NCBI RefSeq assembly: GCF_024449025.1
Contig: NZ_JAHLKM010000008.1
Location: forward strand, 51,266-94,870
Length of the DNA: 43,605 nucleotides
From: Natronomonas aquatica
Lineage (GTDB): Archaea > Halobacteriota > Halobacteria > Halobacteriales > Haloarculaceae
Reading direction: 5' to 3'
The first letter of the stretch is position 1. Each line of letters begins with the position of its first letter. Of the stretch, positions 1,291-6,702 are shown in pieces. A program made the position numbers and the translations under genes. Under the pieces are notes generated by a model. The model saw only the letters and a list, made by a program, of their open reading frames with translations, searched no databases and had not been told where the DNA came from.

Positions 1291-1527
1291 ATGACAGAAT
1301 ACGAAATCACGGTCGACCTGGCGGCCTGCGACGGGATCTTCGCCTGTCTCGTCCGGGACGATCGGTTCGAGGAGTCCGAAGACGGGTTGGTAACGCTGCC
1401 GGACAGCGAGCGGAACGGCGACGAACTGACCGCGACGTTCGACGACGACCGGCTCTCAGACGCCGAGGACGCCGCGGCGGCCTGTCCGACTGACGCGATC
1501 GCGGTTCGGGAGGTGCCCGAAGCGTGA
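1291..1527 (+). CDS. Small single-cluster ferredoxin (3Fe-4S type) of the cobalamin operon
   Basis: A 78-residue protein. The first cysteine pair is CDGIFAC (C-x5-C, residues about 11-17) and the last is in ACPTDAI near residue 67. This C-x5-C ... CP arrangement is that of [3Fe-4S] or three-Cys [4Fe-4S] ferredoxins such as the P450-associated ones, rather than of the two-cluster bacterial type. Start at ATG 1291, one base after the methylase stop; its own 3' end overlaps the next start (GTG 1524) by 4 bases, so translation is probably coupled. By position it probably supplies electrons to the corrin pathway (for example to ring contraction or to cobalt reduction); that role is inferred from context. 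Confidence 0.75.
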   Translation: MTEYEITVDLAACDGIFACLVRDDRFEESEDGLVTLPDSERNGDELTATFDDDRLSDAEDAAAACPTDAIAVREVPEA

Positions 1528-2246
1528 GTCTGGAAAACGAGCCCGGTGGCTCCTCGGACGAGACGAGCGCCGAGGCCGACCGACTCGATTTCGATGCGCC
1601 GAGCGACCTGCTCGATGCCCACCCCGAGACGGCGTACTTCTGGGGTCGAGTCATCGGTGACGGCGAGGTGACGACGGCGGGCGTCACCGTGCGGACGACC
1701 GACGAGGTGGCCGCCGACCGGCTCGCGGCGATCGCCGGGGCCGACGCCGTCGATCACGATACTATCGAACGAGAGTACGCCCACGACACCTCGATCACCC
1801 GCAGCGAGGACAGCTACACGGTCCAACTCCACGGCGCCGTCGGCGACCGCGCCGCCGCGGCCTTCGGGCTGCCGCTTTCGGGAGCGTCGGGCGGGTACCG
1901 ACTCGACGCGCTCGCCGATCACGACCGCCAACTCCTCCGCGGCCTGCTCGAGGGCTGTGGCACCGTCTGTTTCAAGTCCTCCGCGGGGACCGTCGGGATC
2001 TCCTTCGTTCACGACGACCGGAAGCTCCTCGAGCGGGTCCAGTCGCTGCTCGATAAGGCCGACATCGGGGCGCCGTACGGCGGGATCTCCGAGACCTCCT
2101 CGGGCGGGTACTGGTTCGGGATCGACGACGACGCCGCGCCGGCAGTCGGCCGGTGGCTCTATGAGAACAGCGAAACGACGGGGCTTCTCGCGCCGAGCCG
2201 GCGCCGGAAGCTACGGCGGAGCATCGAGGAGGCGACTGCGTACTAA
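1524..2246 (+). CDS. LAGLIDADG-fold protein embedded in the cobalamin operon
   Basis: A 240-residue protein starting at GTG 1524 inside the end of the ferredoxin gene. Two segments look like the paired helices of LAGLIDADG homing endonucleases: AYFWGRVIGDGEV (about residues 38-50) and LLRGLLEGCGTVCF (about 138-151), each followed by beta-rich sequence, as in a two-motif monomeric enzyme. The acidic metal ligand expected at the end of each motif is kept in the first (GDGE) but replaced in the second (EGCG), so DNA cutting is doubtful. There is no intein or intron around it; the gene is a stand-alone member of a biosynthetic operon (overlap of 4 bases upstream and 1 base downstream). The first 30 residues are an acidic low-complexity tail. 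Function unknown; a domesticated nucleic-acid-binding or regulatory role is inference. Confidence 0.6.
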   Translation: MSLENEPGGSSDETSAEADRLDFDAPSDLLDAHPETAYFWGRVIGDGEVTTAGVTVRTTDEVAADRLAAIAGADAVDHDTIEREYAHDTSITRSEDSYTVQLHGAVGDRAAAAFGLPLSGASGGYRLDALADHDRQLLRGLLEGCGTVCFKSSAGTVGISFVHDDRKLLERVQSLLDKADIGAPYGGISETSSGGYWFGIDDDAAPAVGRWLYENSETTGLLAPSRRRKLRRSIEEATAY

Positions 2247-3435: not shown

Positions 3436-3807
3436 ATGACCTGTCACGAAATCGAAGCGCTCCGACTCGGCCTGATGAACAGCCTCGGCGTCGGCGACGA
3501 CGCCACACGGAAACACGCCCGCGAGGAACTCGGCGAGAGCCCCGAACCGCACATCGCCGCGCTCGCCGACGCCGACAGCCTCGCCGCCTGTCGACGACAC
3601 CTCGATACCGCCCTTGTCGAACTCGAATCGGAGGTCGCGGCGACCGATGAGGCCGATCCCGAGTACGACTACCTCCGGGGGCGGGTGGTCGCCGTCAGGG
3701 ACGCAGCCGGCGCGCTCGACCGTCTTTTGGACCACGGCGGGGCGTTCCTGGAAGACCTCGGCGACAGCCACCACACGCTCCACGAGACGTTCCCCGTCGA
3801 TGAGTGA
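3436..3807 (+). CDS. DUF3209-type small protein of the cobalamin operon
   Basis: A 123-residue, strongly acidic, mostly helical protein starting MTCHEIEALRLGLMNSLG, two bases after the cbiX stop. A Cys-His pair (C3-H4), a central Cys in AACRRHLDTAL and a His-rich end (DSHHTLHETF) could bind metal. I recall this as the haloarchaeal DUF3209 family found in cobalamin clusters; no biochemical role is known to me. A longer reading from 3283 exists but lies inside cbiX and is basic, so ATG 3436 is the start. Its stop overlaps the next start by eight bases (ATGAGTGA), which points to translational coupling. A small cobalt carrier or CbiX partner is possible but inferred only from context. Confidence 0.65.
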   Translation: MTCHEIEALRLGLMNSLGVGDDATRKHAREELGESPEPHIAALADADSLAACRRHLDTALVELESEVAATDEADPEYDYLRGRVVAVRDAAGALDRLLDHGGAFLEDLGDSHHTLHETFPVDE

Positions 3808-5026
3808 CACGCCCCGTCCCCCGGGATCGTCCCCCACTGGCCGTCGGATCGATCTCGGTGACGTCGACCCCTGCGGCTCCCGGCAGGCCGGCCGTCGGTC
3901 GGGCGTGACGCTGACCGAAGCGGGACCTGTCGTCGGGCTCGCCTCCGGCACCGTCGAGGCGTTCGATCCCGACGGGACCCGGCGGTGGTCCTTCGAGGGG
4001 TCCGGAAGCGCGATCACGCTCGTCCCCTTCGAGGGGGGCGTGCTGATCGGCGAACGATCGGCCCGGGGCGGAATTCGCCTGCTCGTAGACGGCAACGAGC
4101 GGTGGCGACACGACGCCGCCGACGTTCTCGGCGAGCCGACCAAAGAGACGCGGTTTTTCCTGCCGATGGTCGTCGACGCCGCCGTCTCGACAGACACGGC
4201 CTACGTCGCTGCCAGACGTTATGAACGCCGCGATGGGGAGCGGCACTTCGAGAGTTCGGTGTACGCGCTCGCGCCCGACGGGTCGGTTCGGTGGCGCTAC
4301 GACGCCGACGCCTCGCCGATCGCGCTCGCGCCGTTCGACGGCGGCGTCGCGGTCGCGTACAACCGCTGTCCGGGGGCCCACGACGACGGGCTCGTCGTCC
4401 TCGATGGCGACGGTGCAACGCGATGGACGTGGGATCCCGACCGGAGCGCGACCCGCCGGGTCGGCGACGTCGCGGCGGCCGGCGGTGACCTCGTCGTGAC
4501 GAGCCACGCCGACTACTGCGGCTATCGGCTCGCCGCTGGGGACGTCCGCTGGCGGGTCGATCTCGGCACGCCGCGGCCGGAGGGCGACGAGGTGTACACG
4601 TACCCGAACCACGTCCACGCCGACGGATCCGGCGTCGTCTTTCTGACCGGCAACTCCTTTCCGAGGGAGGGCCGCGAAACCGACGAACGACACCCGAACG
4701 AACAGTCGGCGTTCGGCTACACGCCCGACGGTGAACGGTGCTGGCACGCCGACGTGGGTGGGTTCTGCCACGAAATCGCGACCGACGGCGATCGGCTGCT
4801 CGCGCCCGTCGCCCAGCACTTCCGGGATCGCGATCCGGGCGTCCACGGCTTTCGTTTCTTCGAGGTCTCCGAGGGGCTCCTCGAGAGCGGCCCCACCGAC
4901 GGCGTCCTCACGGCAGCGGCCCTCGAGGACGGCCGCCGGGCGCTGATCGAAGAGCCCGTAAAATACCACGACGAGGGGGCCGTCCGCGGCGAGTACGCAC
5001 TGTTACTGCTGACCGGGGCGGACTGA
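3800..5026 (+). CDS. PQQ-like beta-propeller protein, last gene of the cobalamin operon
   Basis: A 408-residue protein built from repeats of the form DPDG-x-x-x-W: GTRRWSF, GNERWRH, GSVRWRY, GATRWTW, GDVRWRV and GERCWHA are visible, that is about six blades. No signal peptide or lipobox is present, so it should stay in the cytoplasm, unlike the Tat-exported propeller at 14602. Start at ATG 3800 overlaps the DUF3209 stop; the earlier in-frame reading from 3614 lies within that gene. A propeller gene in this position recurs, as I recall, in haloarchaeal cobalamin clusters; whether it is a scaffold, sensor or enzyme is unknown. No PQQ-ligating residues are evident, so the name describes fold only. 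The downstream gene purO is convergent and ends 9 bases later. Confidence 0.75.
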   Translation: MSDTPRPPGSSPTGRRIDLGDVDPCGSRQAGRRSGVTLTEAGPVVGLASGTVEAFDPDGTRRWSFEGSGSAITLVPFEGGVLIGERSARGGIRLLVDGNERWRHDAADVLGEPTKETRFFLPMVVDAAVSTDTAYVAARRYERRDGERHFESSVYALAPDGSVRWRYDADASPIALAPFDGGVAVAYNRCPGAHDDGLVVLDGDGATRWTWDPDRSATRRVGDVAAAGGDLVVTSHADYCGYRLAAGDVRWRVDLGTPRPEGDEVYTYPNHVHADGSGVVFLTGNSFPREGRETDERHPNEQSAFGYTPDGERCWHADVGGFCHEIATDGDRLLAPVAQHFRDRDPGVHGFRFFEVSEGLLESGPTDGVLTAAALEDGRRALIEEPVKYHDEGAVRGEYALLLLTGAD

Positions 5027-5034
5027 CCGCCCGC

Positions 5035-5613
5035 TCACTCGCCGTTATACATACCCGTCCGGAACGCTCCCTCGGTCCGGGCGACGGCGGCCCCACAGAC
5101 CGGGTGTTCGAAACCCCGTTCGTAGAGTTCCCGGGCCATCGCGTCCGGTTCGGTCGCTTCGAGCGTCGTCGCCTCGGGGCTGTCCTTCTCGTAGGTGGCG
5201 ACGAGCGTCGGCTCCCCGAGTGCCTCGACGAGAAGCGCGTCCCGCCGGACGATCCCGACGTAGCTCTCCTCGCCGACGACGCCGGCGATCCGGGGGGTGT
5301 CGTAGTCGTCCTTCTCGTAATCCAGGGCGAGCAACGACTCCGCCAGGGCGTCCCGGGGCGGATATCCGGACTCGAGTTTCTCGGTGATCGGGTCGACCTG
5401 CGTCCCGTTGCCGATCACCGCAAACTCGTCGTCTTCGGTCGTCCGCAGGCAGTTATACGAGATGTATGGGTTGTCCGTCTCCGGGGCCTCCGCTGTCGGG
5501 ACGACCGTGAGCGTCCCGTCGCGTTCGATTACCTTCCGGTTCGGAAACGACCGCGAGGAGACCCGATAGCCAGCCCGATCCGGCGCGACGACGATGAACC
5601 GTCCGACGTACAT
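5035..5613 (-). CDS. purO: Archaeal IMP cyclohydrolase PurO
   Basis: A 192-residue enzyme closing the last ring of IMP (FAICAR to IMP) in purine synthesis. The start [20 protein letters not shown], the segment [10 protein letters not shown], then [18 protein letters not shown] and SYVGIV match the archaeal PurO signature throughout its length (family about 200 residues), so it is complete. It is the archaeal type and unrelated to bacterial PurH. It is transcribed toward the cobalamin operon, whose last gene ends 9 bases away, and diverges from the HNH gene over a 114-base spacer. Confidence 0.93.
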
Positions 5614-5698
5614 ACGCGTTCGTGGTGGCGACGGGAGTATGTCGGTGTCGGTTCGCCGGCGACGGAGACTCCTCTTCAGTTTCGCCTCGTGGCTGGCT

Positions 5699-5707
5699 TT
5701 TTATATT
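5699..5707 (+). promoter_or_regulatory. TATA element of the HNH nuclease gene
   Basis: TTTTATATT lies about 25 bases before ATG 5728, the standard distance for a leaderless haloarchaeal transcript. This supports 5728 rather than any upstream start of the much longer open frame. Confidence 0.6.
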
Positions 5708-5727
5708 GTAACGAACGAGACGAAAAT

Positions 5728-6603
5728 ATGGCGACGACGACGGAGGCGGAGTGTCTCGATGCGCTCCGGGAGGCGGCCGAGCGGCTCGGCGAATCGCCGA
5801 CCAAGAAACAGTATGATGAGCTTGGATTGACGCCGGCATCGACGACCATCTGTCGAATTCTCGGGAGTTGGAATGAGGCGAAAGGGCGGGCTGGACTTCG
5901 AACATATACCCAGGACGAAAACGGTGGAATAGATGTTCAGCCAAAACCCGAGTCGGTCACTATCCCCGATAACGAGGACTGGGCCGATCTCACGGCACAA
6001 CAACGGTGGTACTACAAAAACAAGCAGGACCGAATCGAGACGAAGGAGTGTCGCCGGAAGCAACTCCGGGAGTGGTTCTCTCAATTGAAACGTAAACAGT
6101 ACGCTTGCGAACGATGTGCCGAAGGTCGTTCGGCGGCAATCGACTTTCATCACCCAGAGTCAAAGGTCGCCGGTGTCTCTCAGATGGTCAACCACGGTTA
6201 TTCAAAACGTCGTATCAGAGCCGAGATCGAACGATGTACTGTCCTCTGTGCGAATTGCCACCGGAAAGAACACGATGAGATATCGAAACCGGTGACGCCC
6301 AAGGATCCGGAGCGCATTGAGGCGACGATACGGAATACGTCGGATACCCGGATTCGCAAACAGCGTCGGGCGTGGGTTACGGCGTACAAATACCACAGCG
6401 ATGGATGTGCGCGATGTGATGCCTCTGATCCTGCCTGTCTCGATTTTCATCACGAGGGAGAGAAAACGGTGGGGATCGCAAGGATGCTATCCGAGAGGCG
6501 ATCGCTCGACGATATCCGCCGGGAGATCGACAACTGTGTGTTGCTCTGTGCGAATTGTCATCGCGTAGAACACCACGCCAGGAGAAAAACCGATAGCGTT
6601 TAG
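5728..6603 (+). CDS. Tandem HNH endonuclease-like protein with homing-associated repeat
   Basis: A 291-residue protein with three visible parts. Residues 1-58 (ECLDALREAAERLGESPT to NEAKGRAGL) resemble the small helix-turn-helix repeat found beside homing HNH nucleases. Two HNH modules follow: CERC ... IDFHHPES ... VLCANCHRKEH (about 130-178) and CARC ... LDFHHEGE ... LLCANCHRVEHH (about 228-284). Each keeps the His-His pair and two CxxC zinc knuckles, so both may be active. The gene is visibly poorer in GC than its neighbours and less acidic, and it sits 26 bases upstream of a tRNA gene, both signs of horizontal arrival. No intron or intein surrounds it, so it is a free-standing nuclease; the target is unknown. 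Confidence 0.8.
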   Translation: MATTTEAECLDALREAAERLGESPTKKQYDELGLTPASTTICRILGSWNEAKGRAGLRTYTQDENGGIDVQPKPESVTIPDNEDWADLTAQQRWYYKNKQDRIETKECRRKQLREWFSQLKRKQYACERCAEGRSAAIDFHHPESKVAGVSQMVNHGYSKRRIRAEIERCTVLCANCHRKEHDEISKPVTPKDPERIEATIRNTSDTRIRKQRRAWVTAYKYHSDGCARCDASDPACLDFHHEGEKTVGIARMLSERRSLDDIRREIDNCVLLCANCHRVEHHARRKTDSV

Positions 6604-6629: not shown

Positions 6630-6702
6630 AGTCCATTGGGGTAGCGGCCAATCCTGTCAGCTTCTGGGGCTGACGACCCTGGTTCGAATCCAGGATGGAC
6701 TA
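6630..6702 (+). tRNA. tRNA-Gln (anticodon CTG)
   Basis: A full cloverleaf can be folded. Acceptor AGTCCAT pairs with ATGGACT, followed by discriminator A. The T arm is CCTGG-TTCGAAT-CCAGG. The anticodon arm TCAGC-TTCTGGG-GCTGA has T33 and anticodon CTG at 6664-6666, decoding CAG (glutamine). The D stem is weak (GGGG with TCCT, with G-T pairs). No intron is present and CCA is not encoded. An A/T-rich stretch (TATTACTTTG) follows and may end transcription. Confidence 0.93.

Follow-up and report, generated by a model that had tools for sequence, protein, structure and literature searches.

Natronomonas aquatica carries in its corrin (cobalamin) cluster a protein of the LAGLIDADG fold, the fold of homing endonucleases, which judging from its residues is almost surely no nuclease. 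We put the chance that it is a domesticated, non-catalytic accessory protein of the aerobic cobalt-early corrin pathway at roughly one in two. Its gene is tied to corrin synthesis by a near-absolute link across the order, and it belongs to a small gene set that is missing from the corrin makers lacking COX1.

Place of the gene in the corrin cluster

The stretch of DNA analysed here (43,605 nucleotides, hereafter the window) starts inside a haloarchaeal corrin cluster, with genes in the order cbiH2, three-cysteine ferredoxin, LAGLIDADG gene, cbiX with a 2Fe-2S domain, DUF3209 and PQQ-like protein. The features are:

312-1289, + strand: cbiH2, precorrin-3B C17-methyltransferase (TIGR01466, 302 bits against a cut-off of 246)
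1291-1527, + strand: small ferredoxin (Fer4_15) of 78 aa, absent from the three COX1-less clusters
1524-2246, + strand: LAGLIDADG-fold protein of 240 aa, HVO_B0055 family (ORF list, PF14528, AlphaFold2, Foldseek, 70 orthologous loci)
1632-1670, + strand: first LAGLIDADG-type helix and following turn, residues 37-49, AYFWGRVIGDGEV, catalytic slot D46
1932-1973, + strand: second LAGLIDADG-type helix and following strand, residues 137-150, LLRGLLEGCGTVCF, catalytic slot C145
2246-3433, + strand: CbiX cobaltochelatase, with an MSCDTC (MxCxxC) motif and a C-terminal 2Fe-2S thioredoxin-like domain
3436-3807, + strand: DUF3209 (PF11483), all-helical, with the fold of Thermus TTHB059 (2EHW)
3800-5026, + strand: PQQ_2-type beta-propeller protein, absent from the three COX1-less clusters

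The LAGLIDADG ORF (1524-2246, +) starts with GTG. It shares 4 bp (GTGA) with the end of the ferredoxin ORF at 1527, and its stop codon shares 1 bp with the start of cbiX at 2246 (TAATG), so that the coupling by overlapping codons claimed for both sides in the original prediction is indeed present; the overlaps were found again in an annotated Halorussus cluster (one cluster). Among the 70 loci that carry the gene, ferredoxin and cbiX flank it in nearly all and the order is kept in most. The gene is therefore a stable member of the operon, as had been proposed, and its link with cobalamin genes is conserved in other Halobacteria. Farther along the window, the C-terminal part of the ORF at 4738-6603 (+) contains two HNH-like CxxC...FHH...CxNCH units in translation, and a tRNA-Gln gene (6630-6702) directly follows this ORF.

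In Haloferax volcanii, HVO_B0055 occupies the same place (ferredoxin, LAGLIDADG gene, CbiX, DUF3209), and the window gene is taken as its ortholog because the cluster order, the one character compared, agrees. The main text of PMC8305020 counts HVO_B0055 among four genes in the cobalamin cluster that are left unassigned; that main text mentions no LAGLIDADG fold for it, and no tie to aerobic life was found there. PGAP names the orthologs 'cobalamin biosynthesis protein', and in the main texts of the open-licence literature no paper joining LAGLIDADG with haloarchaeal cobalamin genes was found. While the gene itself is known as HVO_B0055, the LAGLIDADG assignment and the COX1 contrast described below appear to be new.

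A LAGLIDADG fold with a degenerate catalytic site

The AlphaFold2 model of the ORF, built from an alignment of 57 orthologs, has a mean pLDDT of 91 and a pTM of 0.87. It runs through alpha-beta-beta-alpha-beta-beta-alpha twice to form a pseudo-dimer, with one strand short in the second half, and both motifs lie on long predicted helices that run into a strand (H34-46 and H127-145). The original prediction of a LAGLIDADG fold with two such helices, for which this pseudo-dimer had been named as the deciding feature, is thus borne out by the predicted structure. All 41 of the PDB matches obtained by Foldseek at E<=0.001 are LAGLIDADG proteins; they include I-Tsp061I, bI3 maturase, WhiA and I-DmoI, and comprise intron and intein endonucleases. 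TM-scores of about 0.5 mark the ORF as a distant member of the superfamily. At the sequence level, Pfam LAGLIDADG_3 (PF14528) matches the window protein in its second half only (residues 134-182), where the score of 23.6 bits just exceeds the cut-off of 22.5, and it matches 23 of the 57 family members at E<=0.01. Motif 1 alone was matched by no profile, and a sequence search of the PDB with the ORF returned no relatives.

The archaeal enzymes I-Tsp061I and I-DmoI share the pseudo-dimeric fold with the window protein at about 14% identity and a TM-score of about 0.5. Both enzymes keep two catalytic acids and are intron-encoded. The window protein differs on each count, as its catalytic acids are not both kept and it is not encoded in an intron. 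Of the 71 family sequences, 42 have D at position 46, the first catalytic-acid slot, and the other 29 have S, G, A or N there; at position 145, the second slot, 68 have C, three have A or S, and none has an acidic residue. The earlier statement that the acid is kept in the first motif and lost in the second therefore describes the window sequence correctly but fails as a rule for the family. Since both catalytic acids have been lost, nuclease activity of the protein is very unlikely, and a still active nuclease was ruled out as a candidate on these residues.

Conservation is strong elsewhere in the protein. The polar residues H87, R93, R126, R139, E143, C149, S160, R226 and K229 are invariant in the 71 sequences, R226 and K229 being the first and last residues of a basic run, RRRK (226-229), that is conserved. 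A diverged homolog in genome G008 retains H87, R126, R139, E143, C149, S160, R226 and K229. Together with the loss of the catalytic acids and with a free-standing gene that is single-copy in nearly all genomes, this conservation lends good support to the idea that a selfish nuclease has been turned into a working part. In one ortholog (genome G045, locus L080, 2748-3566), a run of SNAT repeats is inserted between the two halves.

Distribution among corrin makers and the relation to COX1

Among the 145 genomes of the order, 69 were counted as corrin makers, CbiH (over cut-off) and CbiC marking the identical 69. The LAGLIDADG gene is present in 65 of these and in none of the 76 non-makers (Fisher p=6e-37). 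This p-value overstates the evidence because it treats genomes as independent samples, which they are not, but the pattern extends over many families. No relatives were found outside the order (392 genomes of the phylum). Three weak matches (G039, G069 and G081; E 6e-4 to 6e-6), intein-like and located inside ORFs of 793-2061 aa, were set aside. In G008, where several contigs each hold part of the corrin genes, the diverged homolog (about 31-35% identity) is still retained; it lies away from the corrin genes, between two cation-diffusion-facilitator (cation-efflux) genes and beside a rhodanese gene. On a Haloarcula rara plasmid (L025, L028), the corrin cluster with the LAGLIDADG gene is present twice.

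The four corrin makers without the gene are G007, G009, G026 and G093. COX1, the haem-copper oxidase gene, is absent from four of the 145 genomes, and the three of these that make corrins are G007, G009 and G026, which are also exactly the corrin makers lacking both the LAGLIDADG gene and DUF3209. Their clusters run cbiT-cbiL-cbiF-cbiG-cbiH1-cbiH2-cbiX, followed by VWA/cobN, cbiC and cbiE, with no ferredoxin, LAGLIDADG gene, DUF3209 or PQQ gene, and their CbiX ends in a His-rich tail and has no 2Fe-2S domain. The fourth COX1-less genome, G082, matches at 100% a plasmid of Halanaeroarchaeum sulfurireducens, a strict anaerobe (PMC5437934), which shows that a missing COX1 can flag anaerobes among these genomes. 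Because they lack COX1, G007, G009 and G026 are probably anaerobes as well; however, cytochrome bd occurs in G009 and G026 (not in G007), so that anaerobic life can be read only imperfectly from a missing COX1.

Cluster trees were built from CbiF, CbiG and CbiH2 using FastTree. The three COX1-less clusters fall outside all others, together in one tree and as basal lines in another (low support), and they therefore provide one or two independent contrasts, not three. Halobacterium, which shares family group f9 with G009 and G026, is placed among the other clusters; cobalamin synthesis in this genus is aerobic and proceeds via the 'anaerobic' branch (PMC3403918). On one or two evolutionary contrasts, then, the set of ferredoxin, LAGLIDADG protein, CbiX-2Fe-2S, DUF3209 and PQQ protein may be tied to aerobic life.

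The set does not always occur whole. COX1, ferredoxin, CbiX-2Fe-2S, DUF3209 and PQQ are all present in G093, but a second, His-tailed CbiX occupies the slot of the LAGLIDADG gene (L078, 2703-3644), which implies that the protein is dispensable or replaceable. Locus L026 departs from the usual composition in another way, combining ferredoxin, the LAGLIDADG gene and PQQ with a His-tailed CbiX that has no 2Fe-2S domain, and lacking DUF3209. In G045, the ferredoxin gene is missing from its usual place. These exceptions suggest that each part of the set can be lost alone. We gave up the idea of an inverse relation between the LAGLIDADG gene and a His-tailed CbiX, as L026 carries both.

The C-terminus of CbiX occurs in two forms, a His-rich tail and a 2Fe-2S thioredoxin-like domain (seen in L082, L083, L084, L026, L078 and the window), and the 2Fe-2S form is that of nearly all COX1-bearing corrin makers. 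The CbiX of the window shares the MxCxxC motif with CbiXL of Bacillus megaterium, where it is said to hold a 4Fe-4S centre (PMC7242693, ref. 109 therein). CbiXL has a His-rich tail, whereas CbiX of most haloarchaeal corrin makers has the 2Fe-2S thioredoxin-like domain instead. A CbiX-2Fe-2S is also encoded in a Leptospira corrin operon, beside DUF3209 and close to cbiD; in that Leptospira stretch no relative of the LAGLIDADG gene was seen. DUF3209, which has conserved Cys, His and Glu residues (window 3436-3807; L088 12001-12372), is also found in Thermus. Leptospira and Thermus are aerobic genera, and the occurrence of DUF3209 in both would fit an oxygen-related reading of the set.

Alternative readings and the proposed role

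The original prediction had also suggested an RNA- or DNA-binding regulator of cobalamin genes. That the protein regulates the corrin operon by binding nucleic acid seems unlikely to us, though this is the best of the alternatives. Known members of the fold bind DNA, and WhiA (DUF199), whose N-terminal domain is a LAGLIDADG domain without nuclease activity that has been put to cellular use (PMC11701221), is among the best structural matches (3hyj, 8dy9). The basic RRRK stretch at 226-229, with R226 and K229 retained in G008 too, points the same way. However, WhiA is a transcription factor with an added HTH domain, whereas the window protein belongs to a metabolic operon and has neither an HTH nor any other added DNA-binding domain: its two repeats make up the 240 aa, no family match to a C-terminal HTH was obtained, and the model ends with the second repeat and one helix. 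Nor does the G008 homolog adjoin corrin genes.

The regulatory signals of the cluster also speak against such a regulator. All 58 of the 58 loci compared have the site TAAnACAAnCAAAATTGTTTTA, which contains an inverted ACAA-N6-TTGT core, 24-27 nt upstream of cbiT with no more than 2 mismatches, and the genome of the window has one copy within 2 mismatches. The site is probably a promoter or operator dedicated to the corrin cluster. It is kept in the three clusters without the LAGLIDADG gene and in G093, so whatever reads TAAnACAAnCAAAATTGTTTTA does not need the LAGLIDADG protein. The protein is thus unlikely to be the main regulator of the operon, a role that was rejected on this ground, and the regulatory part of the original prediction is disfavoured, although the protein might bind mRNA or a different site. 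In L087, the site is seen at about 6137-6153, upstream of cbiT and outside the window. Similar sites precede some other ORFs in related loci. An Rfam scan for a riboswitch in 15 kb around the cluster gave no matches.

More doubtful is a cobalt-binding protein, in which the metal site at the LAGLIDADG dimer interface would have been rebuilt with Cys and would supply or hold cobalt for CbiX. C149, E143 and H87 are invariant and C145 is nearly so, the G008 homolog is flanked by its two cation-diffusion-facilitator genes, and in G093 the LAGLIDADG slot is held by a CbiX with a His-rich tail, a feature proposed in Bacillus CbiXL to serve metal storage and delivery (PMC7689651). Against this, D46 is unconserved, and since three loci have lost C145, a metal site that depends on this residue cannot be common to the whole family. 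L026, moreover, has both the LAGLIDADG gene and a His-tailed CbiX.

It is improbable that the protein fills one of the two known gaps of the pathway, that is, CbiD (EC 2.1.1.195) or CbiJ (EC 1.3.1.106). Family searches found each of the two in 0 of 145 genomes; these gaps in the haloarchaeal pathway have been described in PMC8305020 and PMC6719526, and the former proposes the four unassigned cluster genes, HVO_B0055 included, as candidates to fill them. However, the matches at E<=0.001 include no methyltransferase, CbiD or reductase structures. The ORF has no match to PF01888 and no CbiD structure among its fold matches, and comparison with CbiJ/CobK gave no PF02571 match and no nucleotide-binding reductase fold. 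Moreover, G007, G009 and G026 have CbiH, CbiC and the rest of the cluster and lack CbiD, CbiJ and the LAGLIDADG gene alike, and G093 too is without this gene. Gap filling was rejected on these clusters. In view of the three module-free makers, the ferredoxin, the LAGLIDADG gene, DUF3209 and the PQQ protein are weak gap candidates, unless these three makers use something else.

It is scarcely credible that the protein is a homing endonuclease, active now or until recently, with no more than its location tying it to the operon. The LAGLIDADG fold and weak similarity to intein-like stretches in long ORFs (G008, G039 and G081; E 6e-4 to 6e-6) are outweighed by unconserved catalytic acids, an operon position identical in nearly all loci without intein or intron context, and a gene that is single-copy in nearly all genomes and confined to corrin makers of this order.

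We therefore return to a domesticated accessory protein. The LAGLIDADG protein, its nuclease chemistry lost, would serve as a non-catalytic accessory in the aerobic haloarchaeal cobalt-early pathway. The genes added after cbiH2, namely the ferredoxin, the LAGLIDADG protein, the 2Fe-2S-extended CbiX, DUF3209 and the PQQ-like propeller, may together let an otherwise oxygen-independent corrin pathway run in air. Judging from the position of its gene, with the ferredoxin on one side and a 2Fe-2S-extended chelatase on the other, the LAGLIDADG protein most likely acts near the CbiX/ferredoxin stage, in cobalt insertion or electron supply, and a structural partnership with CbiX, the other role suggested originally, is possible. 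Speculatively, the conserved basic and Cys/His residues of the former DNA and metal sites could provide the binding surface for a partner protein, for cobalt or for a carboxylate-rich tetrapyrrole. A more specific version, which we advance only tentatively, is that the nuclease-dead protein binds cobalt or a corrin intermediate and, with the ferredoxin, the 2Fe-2S chelatase and DUF3209, enables the oxygen-independent B12 route to operate in air.

If true, this would be a case of a homing-endonuclease fold recruited into small-molecule metabolism, an unusual fate for a LAGLIDADG protein, which would act neither as a nuclease nor as a maturase, and probably not as a transcription factor either, but as part of a biosynthetic pathway. 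In haloarchaea, the so-called anaerobic route yields B12 in air, and two known enzymes are missing from the pathway. A small gene set present in COX1-bearing makers and absent from COX1-less ones makes this puzzle of aerobic B12 synthesis experimentally addressable, and the three module-free clusters narrow the search for CbiD and CbiJ to the genes common to both kinds of cluster, such as cbiH1.
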